A stretch of DNA of 64,000 bases from Dactylonectria macrodidyma (taxonomy: Eukaryota; Ascomycota; Sordariomycetes; Hypocreales; Nectriaceae). Positions 3,983-20,683 of this stretch are shown here, one piece after another. A model generated the notes under the pieces. The model was not told the origin of the DNA, did no database searches, and was given only the letters and a program-made list of their open reading frames with translations. Positions within the stretch are counted from its first letter, which is position 1. Each line of letters begins with the position of its first letter. A program made the translations under genes and the position numbers. The stretch is from positions 682,001 to 746,000 of the forward strand of contig JAGMUV010000012.1 in the NCBI GenBank assembly GCA_020744425.1. The letters run 5' to 3'.

Positions 3983-6900
3983 ATGCAAGGGGTAATCGAT
4001 TCTCTACGTGCCTCGGCCGCGACGACAAATACAGAAGTGGAGGACCTCCAAACCCGCCTGGAAAATACGCTCATTACTAAGAGTGATGGAGACGCAACAA
4101 TCACCCGTTTGATGGCAGAAAACGAAGCATACCTAAAAGTTATCCAGTCAGGAGGAGCTTCACACCGCACACCAGAACACCCCGACCCTGAGGCCTTCAC
4201 TGGAGAGGACCCTGCCCTTCTGTCGAATTTCCTTCAGCAACTCGAACTGAAGCTCGAAATGAACAAGGATTGGTGGAATTCAGAAGCCCAACGTATGGGA
4301 TACGTCGTCTCATGCCTCAAAGGCAAAGCGCATGACCAAGTCAGCTACAATATTAAAGATGGGGTGGTTCTGTTCGACAACGTCAACGCCATAAAAAGCA
4401 TCCTTCAGTCAGCCTTCGGAGATATCGACTCTAAAGCCACCGCTCAACTCAAGATCTTTGACATGAAACAGGGCCATAGATCCCTTACGGTATTCCTTCC
4501 TGAATGGTATGCCATCGCTAAGCTCACCGAGTGGGATAGTGGGGCCCTCATTGCTCATCTCCGACGTGCTCTCCACGATAATATTACCTGGAGACTTTCT
4601 CTCACCAAGAGCAAAGATATGCCTACCGAACTCGCTCAATTTATGGACCTTGTCCGTACCTGCGATAACGAATGCCGCCAAGTCGATGCCAATTACTTCA
4701 AGAAGAATGCCAACAACTCAGCCAATCACACTGCCCATCTACAACCCACCACTACGACGCAGTTGACGACCTCTGACGGCGGGGACTCAATGGATTTGAG
4801 CGTCATCACCTGGGGGGCAGAAGACGTCGCCTCGGGTCGTAGACCCAAAACTGACGCGGAGAGAGCAGCACGCAAAGCCTATTGCACAGAGCATGGACTC
4901 TGCCATTGGTGCAGCTCGGACAAACATCGTTCCCTCAACTGTGACACCGCACCATGGAAGACGTAAAAAAGCGTAGTCTCCAACGGAAGTCGCCGTAGGA
5001 GACGCAAGAAAAAGGCCGACCTACAGCTCTCTTCTCTGGACACCAACCAAGCTCACTTGCTATTACCATGCACTCTGACTGAAGACAGTAATTCAAGCTC
5101 AATCAAAACCCACTCCATGCTTGACTCTGGTGCTACCGGAAAGGGATTTATAGACGAGTCCTTTGCGCACACAAACAATTTCACACTATACAAACTACGA
5201 ACTCGTCGCCGGCTGAACGTAGTCGATGGAAGACCTTCCTCGGCTGGCGATGTCACTCACGTAGCGAAACTTAACATGGACATCAAAGGACATAAGGAAA
5301 AGATGCTCTTCTACGTGACGAAGCTCGGGAAGTACGACATCATCCTCGGAAAGCCTTGGTTGACCGATCACAACCCTTACGTCAATTGGAGCGAGAATAT
5401 CGTAACCTTCAAATCCGATCACTGCCGAACGCACTGTTTGACGAAAGGATACCTCCAATTGCCAGTCGCCGGAACCTGCCCCCTGTCGATTTCAGCTACT
5501 ACGTCAATGCTTCCACGCCCACCACTTCCCCGGAGAGTTGGCGCAGCCGCGTTTCATTTCTTAGCTGAAAAACGTGATGTGGCTATATTCTCACTGTCAC
5601 TTTACGAGATTGACCGAAGACTGGCGGAACTCGGGGTAATCACCGAAGTGTCCACATTCGCAGAAGCCAGAACACCCCGATTCGATTCCGCACTCACCAA
5701 CATGCAAAAGATGGAGCGAGAGCTCCGATTTCAAGATAACCACTCCCCCCCTCAACACCAGAACCGACAAGACCTTCGAATCCGGAAAATGGCTGCCGAT
5801 ATGTACCTCTCAGGGGCATCACTGGAAGACATACGCAAAGCTCTCGAACCTAAAACCTTGATCGATCCAACAACAAAAGTCCCCCGTCACTACCATGAAT
5901 TTCTCAAAGTCTTTGACCAGTCTGAGGCAGATAAACTCCCCCCCCACCGAGACTGCGACCACGAAATTGAACTTCAACCTGGCACAACTCCACCCCATGG
6001 ACCTCTGTACGGGATGTCTGAAGACGAACTTCTCGTCCTTCGGAAATTCCTTCAGGAAAATCTTGACAAGGGTTTTATACGCGCTAGCACCTCACCAGCA
6101 GCCTCACCAGTGTTATTTGCGAAGAAACCAGGAGGGGGGCTTCGCTTTTGCGTGGACTACCGTGCGCTTAATGCCATAACCATCAAGAACCGATACCCAC
6201 TGCCATTAATCCAGGAGACCCTTTCCCAGCTAAGCCAAGCCAAATATTTCACCAAACTCGATGTTGTTGCAGCGTTTAATCGAATACGCATCAAGGAGGG
6301 TCAAGAGTGGATGACAGCATTCAACACAAGATATGGCCTCTTCGAAAGCATGGTGATGCCTTTTGGACTATCAAACGCCCCAGCTACTTTTCAAGCTCGA
6401 ATCAACGAAGTCTTACGCCCGTTCCTTGACAGATATTGCACCGCCTACATCGACGACATTCTCATCTATTCGAATGACCTCGCCTCCCACAGACTCCACG
6501 TCAAATCAGTACTCCAAGCACTCGAAGCTGCAGGCCTACAACTCGACGTCAAGAAATGCGAATTCGAGACCACCGAAGTGAAATATCTGGGCATGATCAT
6601 CTCAACCACTGGAGTACAAATGGACCCAGAAAAAGTCGACTGTCTCGTTAACTGGGAAGCCCCTGTCAACGTAAAAGATGTCCAAGCCTTCTTAGGCTTC
6701 TCAAATTTTTACAGACGATTCATCAAAGGATTTTCACGCATCGTACGACCACTTGTTGCCTTGACGCGGAAGCTCACCAAGTGGAACTGGACTCGATCTT
6801 GCCAGGAGGCATTCGATATGCTCAAAGACAGTTTCACTTCAGCCCCAATCCTCAGACACTTTGACCCCACAAGAGAAGTGTTTGTAGAATGCGATGCCTC

Positions 6901-9452
6901 CGATTTTGTGTCCTCAGGCATCCTCTCCCAGGAAGACGATCAGGGAGTACTGCACCCAGTGGCCTTCATGTCCAAGAAATACGACCCCGCCGAATGCAAC
7001 TACGAGATCTACGACAAAGAACTTTTAGCTATCGTACGCTGCTTTGAATGCTGGAGACCCGAACTTCAAGGCGCGCACCACCCGATTACAGTTATTACCG
7101 ACCATGCCAACCTTCGGTACTTCATGACGACCAAGCAACTCTCAAGACGCCAAGTCAGGTGGAGCGAATTCCTGTCGCAGTTTCAATTCGCTATCAAGTC
7201 GATACCAGGGAAAGAAAACGGAAAACCTGACTCACTCACACGGAGGTCGCAAGACTTACCAAAAGACGAAAATGACGACCGCATCCAGTACCAACAACAA
7301 TCCTTGCTTAAACCCCACAACATCGACCGTTCCGTGCAAGAACAAATGAGGCTTGACCCCGAGCTCTCAGAACTCTTTGCAAACCTCTGCTGGGAACAAG
7401 ATATTGCGCTTTGCCCCGCTATTCTCGACGACATTCAACCAGAACCAATCGACCACAAGATCACGAGACTCCTCGATAAAGGTTATGAAGATGACGAATG
7501 GTGGATGAAAATCAGGGACGAGATGCTCAAACCTCATGGCATCCCTCACTCAAAGGAAGTTTCCCTGTCGGAATGTGCGATACACGAAGGCCGATTATAT
7601 TTCAGAGAGAGACTATACGTACCCGAAGGCGAACTACGGACTCTTCTCACCCAACTCGCTCACGACAGCGTCGAATCAGGCCACCCCGGAAAAAACAAGC
7701 TATACGAACTCATCTCACGCTCTTATTGGTGGCCAAGGCTCAGCGCCGATACGAAACAATTCACTCGCAACTGCCACGGATGTCTGAGCAGGCTTTCTAT
7801 CCATATTCCATACTCCATACAGGCCCGTATGGAATATGGGATATGGAATGCACCTCGTATGGAAGCATATTCCATACGTATGGAATACAAAAAATGACGT
7901 CATCTCTCACACTGCCACTATCGTAAAGAATCAGGTTTGGGAGCTCTGCAATTCAGTAATTTTACAGTGGTTTGCCTGCTGTCGGCTGTAGACAGAGCTG
8001 AGATTGAAGTATGAAATAGCATAAACGATAGGCTTAGGATCACCCCTGAAACAGACTGTAATAGCGGGGATAATATTTTCCGGAATAATCCATTATTCCA
8101 TACGTATGGAATACGGACGGCCCGTATGGAATATGGAGTATGGAGTATGGAACATTCCATACTCCATCACTTATTCCATACGAGTATGGATAGAAAGCCT
8201 GTGTCTGAGAAACAAGACCTCCCGGTTGCGGTATCAGGGGACGCTGAAACCTCTCCCAATTCCCCTGCAAAGATGGAGAGACCTATCTGTTGACTTCATT
8301 GGCCCCATTCAACCTACGGCACGTGGATTCAACGCGATCATGGTCGTAGTTGACAGACTGTCAAAGGACAGGCATTTCACGCCCTGCAGGACCGACATGA
8401 AAGCACATGACTTGGCAATGCTCTTCGTACGAGATGTGTGGAAACTCCATGGACTACCTGACTCAATTGTCTCCGATAGAGGACCACTCTTCGTCTCGGA
8501 ATTCTGGAAAGCAGTCTGCCACCGTTTACAGACTAACATTGGCCTTTCTACAGCCCATCACCCAGAAACCGACGGCCAGACGGAAAATGCTAACTCATTC
8601 CTCGAACAATACCTTCGCCAGTACGTCAGCTTTGCTCAGGACGATTGGGATGAGTGGCTCCCATTGGCTGAATTCGCAGCTCGCAATGTTGTCAACGACT
8701 CAACGGGAATGTCACCTTTTTTTGCGAACACAGGCTACCACCCTCGAATGAGCTTTGGTCCCCCTCGAGCATCACCACGCGCAGCATCCAAAGACCTAGC
8801 AGAACGCTGCAAAGATGGCAACAACTTCGCCGCCAAGATGCAAGAGATCACTGACCTACTCCGGACTAACCTGCTCTCAGCTCAAGCATCCCAAGAGCAA
8901 TTCGCCAACGCAAATAGATCACCGGCGCCAGCGTATCGAGTTGGAGACATGGTGCTACTTAGCACACGCAACATCACTTCAGCCAGACCCATCCCAAAAC
9001 TAGATCACAAGTTCATTGGCCCTTTCCGAATCGAGCGCGTACTCAACGCTCACTCCTACCAACTAAAGTTACCACACGAATTGGACTCCATCCACAATTC
9101 ATTCCACACAAGCCTCCTGCGACCATCACCAAACGACCCGCTCCCCGGCCAACGCAACCCCCCGCCCCCGCCAATAACCCTAGATGCAAAGGGGGAGAAA
9201 CTTTGGGCGATTGAAGCAATACTGAACGCGAAGCGCACAAAACGGAAGGGCTTCCAGTACCATATTCTATGGAGAGGCTTTGATCCCAAGGAAGCAACAT
9301 GGGAACCACTGCACAACGTCGTCAACGCTCACATTGCCATCAAAGAGTTCGAGAAACGCTACAAAAACAAACCTAGACCCACGAAACAAGAAATGCAAAG
9401 CGCCCGCCTCCAGGCAAAACAAGACGTGGAAGAATCAGAAGAGATGGAATAA
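3983..9452 (+). pseudogene. gypsy Gag-Pol polyprotein (one internal stop, one MITE insertion)
   Basis: Gag (from ATG 3983) has a coiled-coil-like start and ends in a zinc knuckle (CHWCSSDKHRSLNC). A single TAA at 4964-4966 separates it from Pol, which continues in the same frame. Pol shows the protease DSGAT motif (about 5123), RT with YIDD (about 6447), RNase H (VECDASD, about 6885), and the integrase HHCC zinc finger, split by the MITE just before its end. The integrase core (DFIGP ... VSDRG ... TDGQTENAN) and a C-terminal chromodomain (about 9205-9380) follow. Removing the MITE and one copy of its 8-bp duplication restores the frame through integrase. The single TAA could be a readthrough signal or a C-to-T mutation of CAA. 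Apart from these lesions the frame is intact, which suggests recent activity. Confidence 0.88.
7789..8201. mobile_element. 413-bp hAT-type MITE inside gypsy integrase
   Basis: The 8-bp direct repeat TGTCTGAG flanks it (7781-7788 and 8202-8209). The ends are 17-bp perfect inverted repeats beginning CAGGCTTTCTATCC. An 8-bp duplication with CAG-starting ends is typical of hAT elements. The interior has many copies of short motifs such as TTCCATAC and GTATGGAAT, several forming palindromes (for example around 7873-7890 and 8094-8112). These may be transposase-binding subterminal repeats. It has no coding capacity. Confidence 0.92.
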
Positions 9453-9456
9453 GGGG

Positions 9457-9465
9457 GGACCATAT
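9457..9465 (+). repeat. Target site duplication, left copy (GGACCATAT)
   Basis: Identical to 14680-14688. Joining the two sides recreates the gypsy purine tract followed by the LTR start. Confidence 0.93.
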
Positions 9466-9489
9466 TTACCTCAGGCACTCAGACCCACT
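9466..9489 (+). repeat. Left 24-bp TIR of the DUF6589/RecQ element
   Basis: Perfect inverted match to 14656-14679. It is followed by a GC-rich short palindrome region (around 9490-9510) not shared with the other end. Confidence 0.92.
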
Positions 9490-9691
9490 GGGCGCGCTTA
9501 ACAGCGCGACGCCTTCCCTAAAGGGGTAATGGCTCCCAGAGGGCCTGAGCCCAAAACTTGAAATTTGTGTGGAATAATGCTTCGTCATCGTGACTACATC
9601 TACAAGACTGCGTATTATTGAGAACGTGCCACGCCGCCAGTTGAAAGCATCAACTCCCCTGAACGACGCCGCGATACCGGTAGTTCTTGGC

Positions 9692-12185
9692 ATGGATATC
9701 GACATGGAGCCGCCCACGTCACCTCTTTCCTCCCTCCCGGCGATGAGCAGCCCGCTAGCCTTCGTCGAACCCAATACATCTGCCCGACAGTCTGCACGCA
9801 GCAATGACGAAAAGCTGGAGCTAGCTATCAAATACATGCGAGATGACCTATACTTCAGCATTGGCGATTTTGTCAAAGCACTGTCGACAGCCAAAGGCGC
9901 AGCCAGTGGCAAGAGAAGAGCTGCATTTTCTAAGGCGGTATATGAGGATCCGGCGGTCTTGAAGATATATATGGGAGACAATGACTCGGCGGACGACAGC
10001 CAAGTATGTGCCCGCCATCGCCTCATCTCTCACCTTGATGTCGGGCGTGTCAACTTGCGGCGGGAGGTGAAGAAGCTATGCGAGATGCCACCCTTTCGCG
10101 CAACACAGCAAGCAGAAGCCGGCGCCATTACACGACTGAACATGGGCAAAGTCATCAAGGCTGCAGATGATAGTTGTCCGTTACTCATGAGCATTCTCCG
10201 TCCCGCAATGTTGCCATGGCATATCAATTCGGCTGGCAATGAAGAGCAGTATAGCCCACAACAAGGATGTCTGATCACTATACTGGCAGTGATGTGCCGC
10301 TCAATGCATCTGAAAGAGGCATCAGGTTTCCAGTTACAAATGGGTCTATACCTACACTCCAAAGGTGTCAAAAGAAGACAATTGGAAGCTCTGTGCCGGC
10401 TTGGGCTCTGCAGCTCTTACCAGACGGTTTTGCGCGCCGTAAAGAGACAGTCAGATGCAGCTGCCGGAGAAGTGACCTCGAGAGGACAGCAGCCAACAGC
10501 CGTCACTGCATACGACAACTTCGAGCAGATGGAACATGTCAAGGAGCAGCGAGTTGACAATGAAGACTCGTTTCGATCAGTTACTACTGGTCAGCTTATT
10601 TCTGGCATCGAAATGCCAGAAGGTGGACTGAAGCAGAGCATGCTGAACCAGTCGATAAAGCTGAGACTGACGGATATCATCTGCGCACCGGGAAATGAGA
10701 GAGATGCCGTGGAATTGGAGGTAAGAATCCAATTGCCTGTATTCTGTTCAAGTGGCTGATACCATAAAGTCATAGACTTCCCGATATCTTGTCTATGACG
10801 CTATAAAAAGTGCATTTCCGGATTGCATTGCCATGTCGAATCCTCCTTCAATGCCAGCGATTGATATCCTACCAAGACAGAAGACGAGTCATGTCTCTCT
10901 AGGGCCTATTCCACACGACGAGAGCACAAACTTGGGCAACCTGAATGTTCTAGCGAACATCTTCGAAGAGCAATACAAGCTGCCAGAAGACGTATTCCAG
11001 GAGCGGCTTTTCCTCATTTATGGCGACCAGAAGACGACTCAACGAATCAGAACAGTCAAGTCGCGTCGATCCAGATCTGCCCGGGCCGTCGACAGCTTGC
11101 AATGGGCACTACCGGTGCCAGCTCTCTTTCATTTGAGAATGAACTACCTCTACATGTTGAGCCGAGTGCATTTCGGTGCAGCAGGTGACGGCAGCAAAGC
11201 AACACTCTATTATGCCGCAAATCTCTGGATCCGCAAGGGCATACAGAAGAAGAAAGCGGACTTTTACTCGCTAGAACAGCTCGTCATCCACAGTTTTCAA
11301 GCTAGAATCTGTGCCATCATGTGGTCAACCCTTGCAGCTCTTGACCTTGGACGTACGGAGTCAGATATCAGGAATCTCCTCAGAAGCTATGATACAGTAC
11401 AATTCAACGAGCTTGTGGATAAAACCGTCGAGTCTTACATCTTCGACGCGCGATACACTGAAAATCTAGAGGTCAGGAATCACATACTCTTCCTCCAGCA
11501 GTCTCAGAATTACCTGACTATGAAACATGCTATCAAGCATGCTGACCTTGGTCTGCTTCTGCGTTCCATCCGGCGAAGTGCAGTCTATTTTCATGGATCC
11601 GGCCAGCACAAGTACGCATATGAAATGCTCTATTTCTTGCGTCTGACCACCACGGAAGCTGCGTCGCCAGAGCTTCAAAGAGCCGTAATGGCAAATGGCC
11701 TTGTGAACACAGCTGGCGCAGATGACAGCTGGTTTGAGACCGATAGACTGGTTGAGTTCCACAACGGCACGTTGAAAACGATATTTAAGGACCGCCGTGG
11801 TTCCGCCATCACCGTCAAATATCTCATGGAGAACTGTGCCCTGAATACGGAGTTTTTCAGGTCTCTGGCAGAAAATATGGAGTCCTTTCTGGACATGAGC
11901 CACAACGGCAAACATGCAGACAAGAGTGTTGCTCGCGACATTATTATCATGGCAGAAGCACTCACAGACAGTGGCTCCATTTCTGGCACGCAGCGCAGGC
12001 CAGTTAATCATGAAGCTATAGATTTGTTTGATGCTGCAGCTCCGAGGTTGGCTGGTCCAGCACTGGGCAAATTCAACCGGAAGGAGTGCATGGCTACGCA
12101 GAATGTTACGGCAGACGACTTCGACGCCGAGGAAGAAGCATTCGATGAAGCCGATCAGTTCTTTGATGGGTATGGGGATCTGTGA
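9692..12185 (+). CDS. DUF6589-like protein, candidate transposase
   Basis: Two exons, 9692-10720 and 10776-12185, are joined over a 55-bp intron (GTAAGA...CATAG), giving 812 aa from the first ATG. The frame is open upstream to 9590, so an extra 5' exon is possible. It resembles the fungal DUF6589 family, seen in the tract around YDNFEQ (D codon 10514-10516), the YGDQKTTQRI tract (D codon 11025-11027), the PVPALFHLRMNYLYMLSRVHFG block and RLVEFHNGTLKTIF (E codon 11754-11756). The acidic residues in YDN, GDQ and VEFHN are positioned like an RNase H-fold D-D-E set. That is inference; the family's activity is not known to me. The C-terminus is acidic. Uninterrupted coding and its place between TIRs suggest it mobilises this element. 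It ends 8 bp from the convergent helicase gene. Confidence 0.75.
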
Positions 12186-12193
12186 CGCGTATT

Positions 12194-14177
12194 CTACGAT
12201 CTGAAGACTTTCATCCTCTTCTGCTGTCTGTTCATCCATACTTGGTTATTGCCATCAATCTCACCCAGACGACGACGCCTTGGTGGATATCTTGCGTTCT
12301 TCGCAGCGATAGCTTCAGAGCACGTTCTCTTGATCAAATCTACAACTGAAGCTGCGTGCAACTCCCACTCCGACCAACGGGAACAAAGCAGCAACCCTAG
12401 AGTGTCGACAGAGTCTACGGAAGATGCTGCTTGTGATAGTTGGCGTACCGCTGGCATCGGCATGATCCAGTCTTCCTTCTCCCTTGAGTCCGTCGAGGAA
12501 AACAAGGTCCTAGCAGTCTCTTTCCTCCACTTCAGAAGAGCAACTCTCACAGCCTCGACAATATGTTTCTGCGATATCAGAATCTTCGGCTGCTGAAAGG
12601 CCCCTGTACCCTGGGAGACTGTCTTGTCACCTCGACAGAGAGAGCAGCATGACGATGCCCCGACCGGGTGCAAATATGAGATTGCATCTTCACCGAAGAA
12701 GGTGAGTATGCTCTTTCGAATACAGCTCTGATTATTGATTACGCCCAGCAGCTCTTGAGAGAGCCGGCTCTTCGGCGTATTCGGCTGCAGCGGCCCTTGA
12801 ACTTCATTCCTGGGCATGGATGCTGCAGTGCACCGCGGCTCCACGAACCAGATAAACTCTCCTCTGATGTCAGCCCCTCTAGCAGCTCGACCGGCCCGCT
12901 GCCATAGGGAGCAGAGTGTGGCCGGTTGTTTCCACTGAACGACAAGTCTGATGTCAGGATTATTGATGCCCATACCCATGGCATCTGTAGCCAAGATAAT
13001 GCGGTGTCTTGAGCTATCTTTGGCTCTTTGACAGTCAGGCTTCACAAACTCCTGCGAGATTGAAGTCTTATCAAAGTCTGCAAGCTCTGAGTGATATGCC
13101 TGGATTGCATTCCTTGCTGCCGTCTTGGAACAACCGGTCCTCATCAAAGCTGCCGTCAACAGAGCTTCTGCCGCCTCTAGCTCTGCAATGGAGTCAAAAT
13201 ACACCACAGTTTTGCAGATCTCCATGCAACACTGCCTGCTGTTGAATCCGTGGCCGAGCTGACCGTTCGACGGCTCCCTGATACCGAGAGAGATAAACCG
13301 TGCTGCACCCTGAATGTCGCCAAGAGCAAGAGCAGCACGAGCCTGGTTCGAGCTATACTCTACAACTGCATCCTTCACAGCCTGCTCTACCGGCTTGATC
13401 AGGAACTCAAGATCTTTGAAAGTGGCAGGAGGATGCTCTATCTGCTTCAACGAAATAAAAATATCCGGGCGATCAACAGAGCTACGCTGGATGTAGACGT
13501 TTGCGTCAAATCCACACAACTCACGCACCTTGGCCAAGGTTTGAGGATCCAGAGTTGCAGAGCATGCTAGCCACGGCACAGTGCCAGGAATGAGGCTCCT
13601 CAGCACAACCAGCTGGCTGTAATGCTTCCTGAATGACTCACCCCATTCCCACACAACATGTGCCTCATCTATGGCTACAAGTACAAGTTTGCTTCGAAAG
13701 GTTGGATCGTTGAGTATGGCTTTGAATCTTGCAGAAAGTACAATCTCAGGACCAACGAGGACGTGAGTATAGTCGCCTCTCTTGATACCGTCAAGCAACG
13801 CCTTTGAGTTTGTGCCTGCATTGAGGATGCATGGCTTGCAGCCTGGAATGCGAGATATTGCGGCAGCCTACATGGAATGAAGCAGGTAAATGATATGAGC
13901 AGCTTCCTGTGGCAGATGGCATGTCACTGACCTGGTCTTCTTGCAGAAGCATCAACGGCATGATCATGATGCAGATCCCTCCAGTCAGTGCTGGCACAGC
14001 CTGGAAGACAACACTCTTGCCCCATCCAGTAGGTGCAATCAAAATCAAGTCATCCTCTTCGACTACAAGCCTGCGAATTGCCTGAACCTGCTCCGCGCGG
14101 GGTCTGAAGCCCACTATACACTCAATTTTGGAACTCAACTGCACGTCATCCATGTGTTTGGCAGCAGTTTCCAACAT
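12194..14177 (-). CDS. RecQ-like DEAH helicase carried by the transposon
   Basis: Exon 1 (ATG 14177 to 13932; frame open to 14288) and exon 2 (13867-12194) flank a 64-bp intron (GTCAGT...CATGTAG). Total is about 640 aa. Superfamily 2 motifs are clear: motif I APTGWGKS, motif II DEAH (13658-13669) in VAIDEAHVVWEWG, motif III SATL, and motifs V-VI with TDAMGMGINNPDIR and QRAGRAARG. The order and the DEAH/WGxxFRxxY spacing are RecQ-type. A cysteine-bearing stretch follows (SSCCSLCRG), perhaps a reduced zinc domain. No HRDC domain is seen. RecQ helicases unwind DNA 3'-5' and act in recombination. Here the enzyme probably helps transposition or repair of the donor site (inference). The frame is intact. 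Confidence 0.88.
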
Positions 14178-14655
14178 CCTGCGATCCACAAGATGTCCAG
14201 CACCATCAATACGTGAATGTCGACTCGAACAAGGTTGGAAGGAGGAATTAAACTTCGCGTCTTTCTGTGCAGTCAGAATTGATGTCAATTAAACCAACGC
14301 GGATGAGGAAATTGAGGTACCAACGGGTCGTGGTCGCTTGCTGATGCTGGAGATTTCGCGACGCGACTGCCCTAGACGGCTACAACTCCACAACAACACG
14401 TCGTAAGGGAACCAAAGCTAGATCAATGGATATCTGGGGCTTGTAGGATCCTCCTGATATAATTATCTTATTGATTTGTGTTGAATTGAATCTTTTATGA
14501 CGTGATGTATTTGGTAGGGTTGGGAGTCGACCCAGCGAAACATTATGGTTACCGCAAAATTGTATGGGAGCGAAGCATCATCTCACCCAATTGCCAAGTT
14601 TTGGTCTCAGGCCCTCTCACAGAACCACGTGACCCGCGCGTCTGTTCGCTTAGTG

Positions 14656-14679
14656 AGTGGGTCTGAGTGCCTGAGGTAA
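14656..14679 (-). repeat. Right 24-bp TIR of the DUF6589/RecQ element
   Basis: Perfect inverted match to 9466-9489, followed directly by the right copy of the 9-bp duplication. Confidence 0.92.
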
Positions 14680-14688
14680 GGACCATAT
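14680..14688 (+). repeat. Target site duplication, right copy (GGACCATAT)
   Basis: Identical to 9457-9465. Its last T is also the first base of the gypsy 3' LTR. Confidence 0.93.
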
Positions 14689-14855
14689 GTGAGGGAATGG
14701 TCACGTGATTTTCAACGTTGTGAATAGTGTCATTTTATGAATTTTATGTAAATAGCTTTAAGTCAGAGCTTTCCTTAGGAATCTCTTTCTCTCCTCGTAA
14801 ACAATCATTTTGCCCAAGTCGCACTCGACCTCGTTCGTGCTCTTGTCCCGTCACA
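14688..14855 (+). repeat. 3' LTR of the gypsy element (168 bp)
   Basis: It begins TGTGA and ends TCACA, the inverted dinucleotide-type termini of LTRs, and lies just after the purine tract when the 5.2-kb insertion is removed. The next bases, CAAAT (14856-14860), match the uninterrupted hAT copy at the same site in 42892-45913. CAAAT is therefore the expected 5-bp target duplication. Confidence 0.8.
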
Positions 14856-14857
14856 CA

Positions 14858-17105
14858 AATCATCTATGGCGTGAGCACAAAACACCAGCACCAGAGGGAG
14901 AGAAAAAGAGCACAGCACAGCTCAAATCCGAAGGCGCACTGAAATCGAACCAGCCGACTATTGCCTCTGTTTTGAAACTGGACGTCAACAAGCCTGCGGA
15001 ACAGAATATCGCGAATAGCTTCATCTCACGCTTTGATAAGCAACACTTTCAGCGTATGCTAGTCGAGTTAATCGTCAGTAGCAACCAGTCATTTTCCTTC
15101 GCCGAGAACCCCATCCTCCGCGAAATCTTCGACTATTTGAGTCCCTCCGTTTCCATCCAACACGCCAACTTGACTGCCACGGCTGTCCGATATAAGATCA
15201 TTCAAGAGTATAACCGCCACAAGCAGACGGTTATCGAGGTGCTGAGGAACTCCCCTGGAGCCCTTCATATTTCATTTGATGGCTGGACGTCTCGAAATAA
15301 GCTTGTCCTCTACGGCATTGCTTGTTTTTTCAGAGACGAGAAGAATCGGCCATGCAAAATCATGATTGGAGTTCCAGAGGCTCATCGTCACTTCGGCTCA
15401 ACGATCGGTGGGGAGGTTCTCGACGTCCTACACACTCTTGGCGTGGGTCCAGAGAAGGTTGGCTATTTCACGCTCGACAATGCAGAAAACAACGATACTG
15501 CCATGGAGGTCATTGGTGCTGAACTTGGGTTCGATGGCCGACTGCGCCGAGGACGTTGTATTGGCCACACAATTAACTTGTCAGCCAAGGCGCTCTTATT
15601 TGGCAAAAACGCCGACGCGTTCGAGAAGCAATTGTCAGGCGCAGAAGCGTTATCTGATACTGAATACGCTCAATGGCGCAAAAAAGGACCAGTTGGCAAG
15701 TTACACAATTTCGTAGTTGATGTGCGTATTAGCCACCGGCTGATTTACTTGTTCAAGGAGGTCCAGAGGGTAAGCGGTTTAACTAAATCCTATTCGTCTC
15801 ATATTAACTCGGTATATCTAACAGGACGAAATTAATCGCGCCACCACCCTTAAACTCCAATCGAAGAAACCACTCAAGCTAATTATCGACAACGACACGC
15901 GTTGGCTGTCACAACTCTACATGATCCGCAGGGCTCTACGGTTGAAAACCTCTATCGAACTCCTACTGTTCAAGTATAAGGCGCAATGGGAGGACGAAAA
16001 TCGGTCTAAAAAGACTGGCCAAGTGACACAAGCCAAGTTGGCGAGAAAACCACGCATCCTCCGAGACGAGAATCAGCTAACGGACAAAGACTGGGAGGTT
16101 CTTTACCATTTGGAGGCTATTCTGACTGTTTTTGAGACCGTGGTAAAGACGCTTGAGGGTGATGGACACATCCGCAGGCGTAAGCAAGGCTGGACTGGCT
16201 CCTATGGCAATATCTGGGACGTGGTGCTTGGCTATGAGTTGCTGCTTAACACACTGGAAGAATATAAGCAGCTTGCTGCTGGTTTTCCTGATCCAGAGCA
16301 CTTCCGCATCGGAATCAACCTTGCTTGGGATAAGCTGGATGAATATTATCGGCGGCTGGACGAGACGCCCATCTACTATACGGCTATGGCGCTCCATCCA
16401 GCTTATCGTTGGGACTGGTTTGATGAAACGTGGGCTCATAAGCCTAGCTGGGTTGAAAAGGCAAAAGAGATGGTTGCCGACGTCTGGCTGTCCGATTACG
16501 CTCATCTCGAGGTTAGAACCAGCAGCAGCAGAGGCGACGACGAGCCACCGGCAAAAAGACCTCGGTTTTTCAACCCCTTCGAGAAGAACAGTCGTCTGCC
16601 GAACTCAAAACCAGCATACGCAGCAATTATTGTTGGTGACGAGTACCAAGCGTGGCAGACGGATCGTGAGGCCAGCGACGGCGACGTTCGTGATCCAATT
16701 GGTTACTGGATAACTAAGCAAAGCAGATATCCTCGGTTATCCAGGATGGCCTTGGACTTCCTGACGATCCAGCCGATGTCAGCCGAGTGTGAGAGGTTAT
16801 TTTCAGCCGCTGGCAAGATGGTCTCGGGGTTGCGTACGAACCTAGATGCTGAGATTATCGCCATTTGTCAAGTTTTACGCTCTTGGTACCGTGCTGGCCT
16901 TATCAAGGACCTGGATCCATTGCTTAAGTCACACCTTGAAAGCAAGCTGGATGCCGGCTGCGTGACTCTAAGCGAGGACGAGCTGGCACTTGCTGAGTCA
17001 AAATGGCTATTGGAGGGCGAGAACAGCGCCAGCGAGGTTGACGATTCATCACAGCAGCAACAGGTTGAAGAGTTAGTGTCAACGTCTGAAAGTGAGGCTG
17101 AATAG
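14858..17105 (+). pseudogene. hAT transposase copy 1, N-terminally truncated
   Basis: Exons 14858-15769 and 15825-17105 flank a 55-bp intron (GTAAGC...TAACAG), giving 730 residues. The fragment starts inside the zinc-finger region (HLWREH), then has hAT catalytic landmarks FDGWTSR and DNAENNDTAMEV. Later come CIGHTINLSAK and the C-terminal dimerisation block (YPRLSRMALDFLTIQPMSAECERLFSAAGKMV). Compared with copy 2 it lacks 79 N-terminal codons but has TAT where copy 2 has a TAG stop. The acidic serine/glutamine-rich tail ends at TAG 17103-17105. It would have been a nuclear cut-and-paste transposase with 8-bp target duplications. It is inactive through 5' truncation. Confidence 0.9.
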
Positions 17106-17285
17106 GCACCGACGAGGTTGTGAAGAGCCTCAAAGATCCACTATAAATCCACTTATAAATCCACGTGTGTACATCCATTCCACTCCGGTCGAAAGTGTGC
17201 TACATCCACTTTGTAATTGCCTAAAAATGGTCCATCCACTCTACTTGGCCCAAAAGTGGAGTGGATGTAGTGGTTCCGACCCTTG
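14858..17285 (+). mobile_element. hAT element copy 1, 5' end replaced by the gypsy LTR
   Basis: The sequence is nearly identical to the complete copy at 42892-45913 (opposite strand). The 3' terminal inverted repeat ends ...GACCCTTG at 17285, preceded by many ATCCACT motifs. The left end and the first 79 codons are missing because the gypsy element inserted there and its left side was lost. The flank to the right (17286 onward) is coding tail of another hAT. Confidence 0.85.
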
Positions 17286-17477
17286 GCCAAAATGGTAGAG
17301 GCATGTGAGTGCATTAAAAGCTGGATAAGTGTTCCAAAGGGAAAAAGCAGGCCGCTTCTTGCAGGGGTGTTTAGGGGAGCGGATGATATCGACGCGGCTG
17401 TAAGGATACTCCAAGAAGATATAGAGATGGGCAAGGGGGAAGAAAGCGATGGCGAGCCTAGCGAATTGGAAGAATAG
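17286..17477 (+). pseudogene. Coding tail of another hAT transposase
   Basis: The frame starts where hAT copy 1 ends. It reads KMVEACECIKSWISVPKG, the helix that follows the hAT dimerisation domain in many fungal copies, and then an acidic tail ending at TAG. The upstream part was separated by insertion of hAT copy 1. Family assignment rests only on this short block and its position. Confidence 0.5.
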
Positions 17478-17962
17478 GTAGGCAGGCAATGCCAGACATC
17501 TTTGAGGTGCCTAGTGGTAAGGGGTCTTGATACATGCACCATCGATGGTGCAAATATCCTCACGTGACTCGTGCACCACCGGTGGTGCAACTATCATCCG
17601 TTATGTAAGGCCACGTTGGCCCTATTGAAAAGTGTCGCATATCACCGCTAGGTTCGTGCGACTGGGTATGAGACGTGGCTCATACTTTGGGGTCGTGTAT
17701 CCGGTTTCACATCCAACTTGTCGCATCAAGGATTCCAATCCAAACGACATGAGCTTAAATAGCTCTGCCCGAACACATGGCTGTTCAATTTCTTTTGTTC
17801 TTTAGATAATTCTCATCAATTGACTGGCGCCATCAATGATCCCTGTGGAGCTAATTGTCTGACAAAAAGGGACAACTAGCATACTACAAATTGACCCCCC
17901 AATTCAACGGTCAACAGCTTCTGCGGTATCAATCCAACTTACCGTGCCTTTCTTCTGCTAAG

Positions 17963-20683
17963 ATGAACCCAATTGACACCTCCCTTCGCTTCCCTGATGA
18001 CGTCCTTCCTCCTGAAGGCCAATTCAACTCACTAGAGGAACTACGTACAGCAATCAATGCTTGGGCAGCACCACGAGGCTATGCCTTCGTGATCGGAAGA
18101 TCGAGGAAGACTCCCAATGGAAGAAGTACAGTTCACTTCAACTGTGACCGTGGAGGAGGGCGTACTCCTTCCCTCAATCCCTCGAAGAAGAAGCAGCGGG
18201 ATACTACAACACGACGTACAGGATGCCTCTTCTCTGTCACAGCAAAGGAAAGCTTGTGCAAGACTGTATGGAGTCTGAGGCATCGTCCTGGGGCTGGCTT
18301 TGATCAACACAATCATGAACCAAGCTTCAGCCAACTAGCACATCCAACGCTTCGTCAACTATCCGGTCCAGAGGAATCAACTGTCCATCAACTCGCTAAT
18401 GCCGGCATTGCGCCAAGGGAGATCAGATCCTATTTACGCATGAACTCGGATACACTTGCTACACAGAGAGATATCTACAATTGTATTGCACGGGGCAAAC
18501 GGGAGCTTGCTAAAGGTCAAAGCCATATGCATGCCCTTGCTGACCACCTCGAGAGCGAGGGCTTCTGGAGTCAGATTCACCTTGACGAGAGTGGCAGAGT
18601 TACAGCAGTGTTATTTGCACATCCGAAGTCACTGGGATACCTCAAATTATATCCCGAGGTGCTTCTATTGGACTGTACATATAAGACTAATAAGTACAAG
18701 ATGCCTCTTCTGGATATAGTTGGTGTTGATGCTTGTCATCGATCCTTCTGTATTGCATTTGCGTTCCTTAGTGGTGAGGAAGAGGATGACTTTATCTGGG
18801 CTCTTGGCCGGTTACGGAGTGTATATGAGCTTTGTGGAGCAGCCCTTCCATCTGTGATACTTACAGATCGCTGCCTTGCTTGTATGAATGCTGTTTCCTC
18901 TTGTTTCCCCGAGTCAAGCTCGATGCTATGCTTATGGCACATCAACAAGGCAGTTCTGACCCATTGTATGCCTGCATTCACTCGAGATAAACCCGAAGCC
19001 CAAGGGCAGAAAGACTGGAAGGAGTTCTATGGCTCTTGGCATGAGATTGTAGCCTCAACGACTGAGGATATCTACAACGAGAGGCTTGAGAAGTTCAAGA
19101 AGCGTTACATCCCTGACTACATCAACGAGGTGGGCTATATTATAGAGACCTGGCTGGATCCCTATAAGCAGAGGTTTGTCAAGGCGTGGGTTAACCAATA
19201 CCTTCACTTTGAGCAATATGTTACATCACGGTGCGAGGGTATTCATAAGCTCTGTGACGGGAGCGTCTGGAGTGCTGGACCCAGGGTGGGGTCGATACGT
19301 AACTAGGACGCACAGGGCAGGCCACAGGGACTATCAACGCGTCTGCGCGTCCACGCGCCTGCCCGCTTTCTCTTTCCTCTTCATCGTAGTATTCTCGCAA
19401 TACAGTGGCATTACCTCTTGAGTTGATCTCATCCGGCCCGTGACAAGCTCGTCAAATCTCATATGAACAACAACTCGCAAGTTGACCTCTTCGAGGCCTG
19501 GAGGATCATCAAGCTCGTTCTAGTAAACCAGCTTACCGAGCTCGAAGCAAACCAGGCTAAGCAGCATACCAGTGTACCTCTTCAGCTATCTGGGGTATTG
19601 TACGGCAATATCCGTGGTTGGATCTCGCATGAAGCCCTACGGAAGGTTGAGGCTCAACGGGAACGACTATTGAACGAACTTCCTGCGTGTACAGGGGCCT
19701 TCTCTAGGACCCTCAGTCTGCCTTGTGCTCACACCCTTCAGCCTTTACTGGTGCAGAGTCAGCCCCTTCAACTACATCATTTCCATTCACATTGGCATCT
19801 CCAACGCTCAGGAACCCCCCGGCTTATTATTGAGCCTCACAAGCAGTTTGATCGTCTAGCAGCTCGTTCAACTCTGCCACCAACAAGCACACAACGTGAG
19901 CCTTGTGCATTTGAAGCTGTTGAGAAAGCAGCACAACCAAAGGCACCACCGAAGTGTTCGAGATGTGGTGTACAAGGCCACACTAGGAAATCTAAAGCAT
20001 GCCCCTTACGTTACGAAGAGCTATTGCAGGCTCCTGCCCAAACCTCTACGACGACGCGTACAACAACACATACATCTACTCGCTCTGTAACTCGCTCACT
20101 GTCCCCGTTATCCCCATCAGGAGACTCTGTGGTATCTGAGATTATAGCATACACAACGACACATACGACAACACACACAACAACTCGTGTGCTATCTCCA
20201 CCAGCAACCAGGCCAGCAACTGTCACTGCAGCAGTGCCCGCATTACGACCTGATGACCCCCGTGCTATCTACCAACGATACAAAGAAGCACGAGAGGCCT
20301 GGTATGCTACATTGGATCGGGGAGCTGTCAAGACCAATCAACAATACCGGAAGGCCAAGGGTCTGCCTACACGCTACTCCAAAACAGAGTATAACTGGTG
20401 CCTTGACTACAAGCGAATGGGGCCTCATTGCAAGATAGGAAATAGCTTCAGAGACTGGACTACAGAGGAGAAGATGAGTTATCTTGATTGGGATAGGGCT
20501 GAGAACGAGCGGGTTGAACAGAATGTAGGGATAGAGATGGCGAAGCAGCCTTTCTCAGGGCGGCGAGGCATGCGAGATATCTGGGATGCTGCGGAAAGAG
20601 ATCTCGAATTACAGGAGGAATGGTACGGAGGTGGGAACCCCGCCCCCCCAACTAACATTTACAAGAGTGACAGGAAATTGTGA
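17963..20683 (+). pseudogene. MULE transposase, interrupted by a solo LTR
   Basis: From ATG 17963 (an open upstream stretch to 17855 lacks an ATG) the product has an N-terminal FAR1-like zinc domain (CDRGG ... RTGCLFSV ... HNHEPS). The MULE catalytic domain follows, with D in LLLDCTYKTNKYKMPLL and D in LTDRCLACMNAV. Then come LCLWHINKAVL and SRCEGIHKL. There a 193-bp LTR plus a 5-bp duplication is inserted and brings a stop at 19304-19306. Skipping 19253-19450 joins IHKL to VKSHMNNNSQVDLFE in frame. The remainder has a SWIM-like CxH (LPCAH), a CCHC knuckle (CSRCGVQGHTRKSKAC) and a Thr-rich linker. Without the insert it would be 840 aa and otherwise intact. Confidence 0.9.
19253..19445. repeat. 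Solo LTR (193 bp) in the MULE transposase
   Basis: It begins TGTGACGGG and ends CCCGTGACA, with AGCTC duplicated on both sides (19248-19252 and 19446-19450). These are features of an LTR left after recombination of a retroelement. It is not similar in sequence to the gypsy LTR at 14688-14855 beyond the termini. Confidence 0.9.

Follow-up and report, generated by a model that had tools for sequence, protein, structure and literature searches.

A recently active two-gene DNA transposon, probably of the AcademH type, with a DUF6589 protein and a RecQ-type helicase in Dactylonectria macrodidyma

The 64,000-nucleotide stretch of the Dactylonectria macrodidyma genome that was analysed here (the window) contains an element of 5,214 bp that we consider, with a probability of roughly three in four, to be a recently active two-gene DNA transposon of the AcademH type, i.e. 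a member of the Academ superfamily. With terminal inverted repeats (TIRs), a target site duplication (TSD) and empty sites, the element is by its sequence features a DDE/D DNA transposon (class II, TIR). One of its two genes encodes a protein of the Pfam family DUF6589 (PF20231), a family of unknown function that consists of hypothetical fungal proteins in the databases and that now gains a likely function, very probably that of a transposase. The other gene encodes a RecQ-type SF2 helicase. The features, in window coordinates, are as follows:

9457..9465, strand., left TSD GGACCATAT (from sequence and script)
9466..14679, strand., whole element (5,214 bp), inserted where purine tract and LTR of a gypsy element meet
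9466..9489, strand +, left 24-bp TIR TTACCTCAGGCACTCAGACCCACT (from sequence and script)
9692..10720, strand +, DUF6589 gene (inferred DDE transposase), exon 1, from the first ATG at 9692; predicted catalytic D275, codon at 10514
10721..10775, strand +, DUF6589 gene, inferred intron of 55 bp, GT..AG, phase 0 (from sequence)
10776..12185, strand +, DUF6589 gene, exon 2, with predicted catalytic D427 (11025) and E670 (11754); PF20231, E 1.3e-72
12194..13867, strand -, RecQ-type SF2 helicase gene, exon 2 (Helicase_C), from domain and structure-relative matches
13868..13931, strand -, helicase gene, inferred intron of 64 bp (from splice signals and frame)
13932..14177, strand -, helicase gene, exon 1, from the first ATG of the long frame (14177); Walker A GWGKS recognized by eye
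14656..14679, strand -, right 24-bp TIR, TTACCTCAGGCACTCAGACCCACT inverted (from sequence and script)
14680..14688, strand., right TSD GGACCATAT (from sequence and script)

The span of the unit was read from the sequence and confirmed by script, and its two TIRs match each other with 0 mismatches. When window positions 6001-18000 were scanned for any 14-bp inverted ends (at most one mismatch) with an exact 9-bp flanking repeat, one pair was found, versus none in 200 first-order Markov sequences derived from the same region. Joined to each other, the flanks of the element match continuously at no fewer than 11 other places of the 77.3-Mb genome, at ten of them across all 204 bases and at one across bases 2-204; since the scoring covered 40 of 107 candidates, the true count may be higher. 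The LTR start, near base 109 of the query, is where many more matches begin. Six of the eleven places were aligned, and in all six the 9-mer occurs singly and without the element, exactly in two cases and with one base changed in four. An earlier note on this DNA had described a 5214-bp unit with perfect 24-bp TIRs and an exact 9-bp TSD, whose flanks rejoin into a gypsy purine tract and LTR; both descriptions hold, the second by way of the uninterrupted gypsy places, and the empty sites that it proposed to look for exist as paralogous gypsy copies.

The 24-bp end has 40 matches in the genome with up to 3 mismatches, versus none for the reversed control pattern, and PF20231 is found at 22 places. 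Apart from one on contig C56, all of these DUF6589 loci were read, 20 in addition to that of the window, together with smaller pieces around other ends. In all 11 long elements compared, which represent several subfamilies, both ends begin with TTACCTCAG. A scan with the window's own end sequence gave 16 end pairs of the window subfamily, nine of which have an exact TSD (six of 9 bp, three of 8 bp) and two an imperfect one (L012, L035), while no TSD was found at the remaining five (L013, L027, L037, L043, L052). The ends of L043 and L052 lie merely about 93 bp apart. For the other subfamilies, the scan covered a selected set, solely ends already with an exact 8- to 10-bp duplication (L010, L014-L016, L019, L021, L028), and within this set the TSD is 9 bp long in L014 and L015 and 8 bp in L010, L016, L019, L021 (twice) and L028, that of L010 being alternatively readable as 10 bp. 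Altogether, 9-bp TSDs flank the window element and seven other end pairs, and 8-bp TSDs flank nine end pairs. Among the 14 near-complete copies, eight have inverted ends with an exact TSD, L012 has an imperfect TSD and L013 none, and for L009, L017, L018 and L020 no end pair with an exact 8- to 10-bp duplication was found. The boundaries of most other copies are the same as those in the window, where the earlier note had named differing boundaries as evidence against its unit.

The element is complete, and it has moved recently. L011 and L012 occupy two sites and do not differ anywhere along 5,314 bp; between L014 and L015, the identity is 99.98% and the 9-bp TSDs differ. In three derivatives of 739-742 bp, what remains is 210 bp from one end and about 530 bp from the other; L040 and L027 are likewise products of internal deletion. 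Internally deleted derivatives are typical of incompletely repaired cut-and-paste elements such as P and Ac/Ds, and the derivatives found here suggest a cut-and-paste movement with subsequent incomplete gap repair. A copy-out process is the other possible mode of movement.

The DUF6589 gene has two exons and begins at 9692 or 9704. Counted from the first ATG, it has 812 codons, but as two other copies have ACG at this position, 9704 is the likelier start. The introns of both genes of the element were deduced solely from splice signals and frame. For DUF6589, no convincing match among solved structures came from a sequence profile search (best E 0.17). In the fold comparison of two DUF6589 models that are 20% identical to each other, DDE transposases and RAG ranked above all else, the closest solved folds being those of hAT (Hermes), the P element, ISCth4 (IS256 family), Tn5 and RAG1/Transib, at 7-13% identity; Foldseek without a second aligner gave weak matches. 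We know of no RecQ gene in any of these systems. The conserved D, D and E residues lie in the models at the positions that are expected for a DDE triad, E670 being the predicted choice out of three invariant glutamates. By prediction only, DUF6589 is an RNase H-fold enzyme with D, D and E, and it is very probably the transposase of the element. The statement of the earlier note that the unit carries no known transposase is thus right for the Pfam label but not otherwise, since the models rank DDE transposases and RAG highest, and its conditional suggestion that DUF6589 might be the transposase gains support from the same models.

Homologues of the DUF6589 protein, which are known as proteins alone, occur in Fusarium, Metarhizium, Geoglossum, Marasmius and Dendrothele and hence in Ascomycota and Basidiomycota. 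The homology searches scored the 7,991-7,997 candidates that have the most words in common with the query, and among the candidates scored the best match is from Fusarium solani (92%). This match weakly suggests a host from the Nectriaceae, given that mobile elements may pass between species. A second search gave eight proteins, all from basidiomycetes and six of them from Marasmius species other than Marasmius oreades. In viral contigs and in the genomes of 84,980 prokaryote species, no relatives were confirmed (118 and 91 pattern matches).

In case of the helicase, the Pfam domain Helicase_C is recognized above its cut-off (E 6e-10), and DEAD (in each exon) and RecQ_Zn_bind are below theirs. 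Among solved structures, a RecQ helicase is the best match (E 2.7e-34), and the closest set comprises RecQ, WRN, BLM and RECQ5. The closest named database relatives are fungal, with Ilyonectria robusta first (90%) among the candidates scored. Compared with two relatives, the window copy lacks about 100 bp immediately upstream of the helicase frame, about 80 of them in one block near 14305, and because of this extra sequence in the relatives the gene may have a different 5' end in the window copy; the helicase core is present. A nuclease domain was not found in the two genes by Pfam search.

The two genes are arranged convergently (tail-to-tail) in all 14 near-complete copies. Among the remaining seven loci that were read, the RecQ-type gene is present in L026 and L028 and missing from L022-L025 and L027, which are truncated or deleted copies. 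In their main segments, the two proteins lose similarity to the window copy in parallel, with identities of 94, 63, 54-56 and 34-35% for DUF6589 and of 95, 64, 45-46 and 31-35% for the helicase. Neither gene has internal stops in the window copy, L011 and L013, and pairwise dN/dS among these three is 0.21-0.28 for both genes, which thus look to be under purifying selection. The pair of open DUF6589-like and RecQ-like frames that had been claimed from the letters was recovered, with matches to PF20231 and Helicase_C, and its co-occurrence in other copies, proposed as a check, was found.

Could the element nevertheless be mobilized in trans by another transposase, with both genes as mere passengers? 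Short derivatives without intact genes also bear duplications, and the ends are therefore apparently usable in trans. Such a passenger role is extremely improbable, however, as the gene pair is constant, together with matching ends, even between subfamilies with as little as 34% identity, as both genes appear to be under purifying selection, and as the models of DUF6589 resemble DDE transposases. Repeated RecQ-type genes are also known from fungal telomere-linked RecQ helicase genes, but these are subtelomeric according to the available part of PMC4522978, whereas the helicase gene of the window lies within a TIR element and distant from the contig end. Among metagenome hits to DUF6589 and the helicase, there are three pairs of contigs that are equal in size and source (4,878; 4,877; 5,085). 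These pairs hint at a DUF6589-helicase linkage elsewhere, and we do not use them as evidence, because a fourth equal pair (1,974) is too short for both genes.

AcademH, for which Kojima 2020 (Mob DNA 11:15) is reportedly the source, is the best home for the element by gene content, host range and, less clearly, duplication length, the comparison being one of descriptions. As stated in the accessible text of PMC10045372, AcademH generates TSDs of 9 or 10 bp and AcademX of 3 or 4 bp, a difference that is tied to the encoded helicase and nuclease, respectively. In the accessible text of PMC10799480, the domains given for AcademH, KolobokH or Helitron include DEAD and Helicase_C, and AcademH is said to range over Basidiomycota, Ascomycota and Mucoromycota. 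The window element and AcademH thus have in common a helicase (DEAD, Helicase_C), a 9-bp TSD and an occurrence in Ascomycota and Basidiomycota, whereas AcademX, the other Academ lineage, differs from the window element by its nuclease and its 3- or 4-bp TSD. The earlier note knew of no named superfamily with this gene pair; a reading by which none fits is not supported in view of the AcademH descriptions in these portions of the two papers (helicase, 9- or 10-bp TSD), and the proposal of a new transposon type is probably wrong, as an AcademH with helicase, TSD class and fungal range is already in print. Widespread putative nonautonomous Academ insertions are reported for Marasmius oreades in the accessible part of PMC8290104, and together with the above-mentioned six of eight DUF6589 homologues from Marasmius they point to Academ as circumstantial evidence. 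The retrieved parts of PMC12210899, PMC9970103, PMC12730594, PMC10294476, PMC11075540 and PMC9004415 do not decide the classification.

The main departure from the published AcademH description is the 8-bp duplications, which occur in these elements besides those of 9 bp, in a comparison that sets descriptions side by side. It is this departure on which a different classification could build, namely that of a separate DDE superfamily in which the DUF6589-RecQ elements share with Academ nothing but the RNase H fold and obtained their RecQ-type helicase independently. No mention of the term “DUF6589” was found in the literature searched, and PF20231 is the sole precomputed Pfam domain in all 49 homologous proteins retrieved, which would agree with such a separation. 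The term “PF20231” is absent from the matches listed in a search for “PF20231” or “Academ”. AcademH, as far as the accessible text describes it, has the same gene content, TSD class and fungal range, and we therefore regard a separate origin as rather unlikely. The same holds for the idea that an unclassified fungal DDE superfamily is defined by TTACCTCAG ends, 8-/9-bp TSDs and a RecQ-type helicase as obligate partner, which we consider doubtful. If the elements are not Academ, they constitute a new superfamily.

What other known systems come into question? KolobokH, a Kolobok lineage with a RecQ helicase that is so far found in fungi only, is likewise a fungal DDE transposon, and in a red-alga Kolobok the RecQ gene is on the complementary strand, as in the window element (PMC9587614, accessible text). 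According to the same text, however, KolobokH has its helicase on the downstream side of the transposase domain, versus a convergent gene in the window element. The Kolobok TSD is the 4-bp TTAA, which is none of the duplications read here. KolobokH is contradicted in two defining features and is a very improbable assignment. It carries between the second D and the E the C/DxxH signature, which according to PMC9587614 is common to hAT, P, MuDR, Kolobok and Dada. This signature is absent from the DUF6589 sequences, none of which has C or D at position -3 of any of the seven conserved-H columns, and its absence also separates the window element from hAT and P. For a Mutator-like element (MULE), the 9-bp TSD alone would fit, as MuDR has TSDs of 4-10 bp (PMC10045372, accessible text), but the C/DxxH signature is again missing.

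Returning to the AcademH reading, the element probably works like a DDE cut-and-paste transposon. Its DUF6589 transposase would be an RNase-H-fold DDE enzyme in which, according to the models, a long helical insertion separates the fifth strand from the E-bearing helix. This enzyme would recognize the TTACCTCAG ends, possibly together with CTCAG/CTGAG motifs just inside, would excise the element and would then join it to the target DNA with a stagger of 8 or 9 bp. The RecQ-type helicase could take part in this reaction or in the associated repair, where it would unwind the ends, intermediates of strand transfer or the donor site after breakage. With intact, recently mobile copies and matched empty sites in one genome, there is now a setting for studying what a helicase does in DNA transposition. 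As for the CTCAG/CTGAG motifs, which may be binding sites, the terminal 500 bp contain 5 to 7 of them, versus 0.5 to 2.1 expected for an even distribution (11 elements counted). Part of these terminal motifs fall within the inverted repeats.

At the family locus L021, a 6,039-bp element with an 8-bp duplication of its own is enclosed by another pair of such ends, which has a different 8-bp duplication; the locus is a nested insertion. Other frames are found within another copy of the family:

C32:318823-330846, family copy with ends 12,024 bp apart (L044, L045, L053, L054)

The ends of this copy are flanked by the exact 9-bp duplication CGTGCTAAG, both genes (DUF6589 and helicase) are present only as pieces, and the interior contains other, mobile-element-like frames; judged by eye, one of these looks like a LINE and another like a transposase of the pogo type.

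Family copies may also have taken part in exchanges, as the flanks of two copies suggest:

C19:273371-278699, family copy (L013)
C8:386985-387726, family copy (L037)

The target-site duplication is absent from the flanks of both end pairs, and over the 14 bases read, reverse-complementing the left flank of L037 gives the right flank of L013; in view of these two features, it is possible that copies on different contigs have exchanged. Two single ends also share flanking sequence:

C19:36449, single end of the family (L023)
C51:114693, single end of the family (L046)

Common to their flanks is AGTCTAGA. There may have been a rearrangement at the element. The flanks look as though the two halves of one duplication sat on separate contigs.

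One copy is poor in G+C:

C77:118100-128099, family copy whose ends are intact and flanked by an 8-bp duplication (L028)

It is stop-ridden, its G+C content is 24%, and both predicted catalytic D residues of DUF6589 are changed to N, which is the pattern of repeat-induced point mutation.

Other putative mobile DNA lies near the window element:

window 14801-15835, 344-codon frame beginning about 110 bp past the LTR start
window 7789-8201, short unit of 413 bp with CAGGCTTTCTATCC ends and the 8-bp duplication TGTCTGAG

By eye, the frame looks like a hAT transposase; a Pfam match at 0.001 was sought for it and not found. The short unit, which looks like a short element of the hAT type, overlaps the start of a frame (window 8025-9452) that encodes an integrase core and a chromodomain, and units with the same ends are present at L025 (413 bp) and L018 (818 bp).
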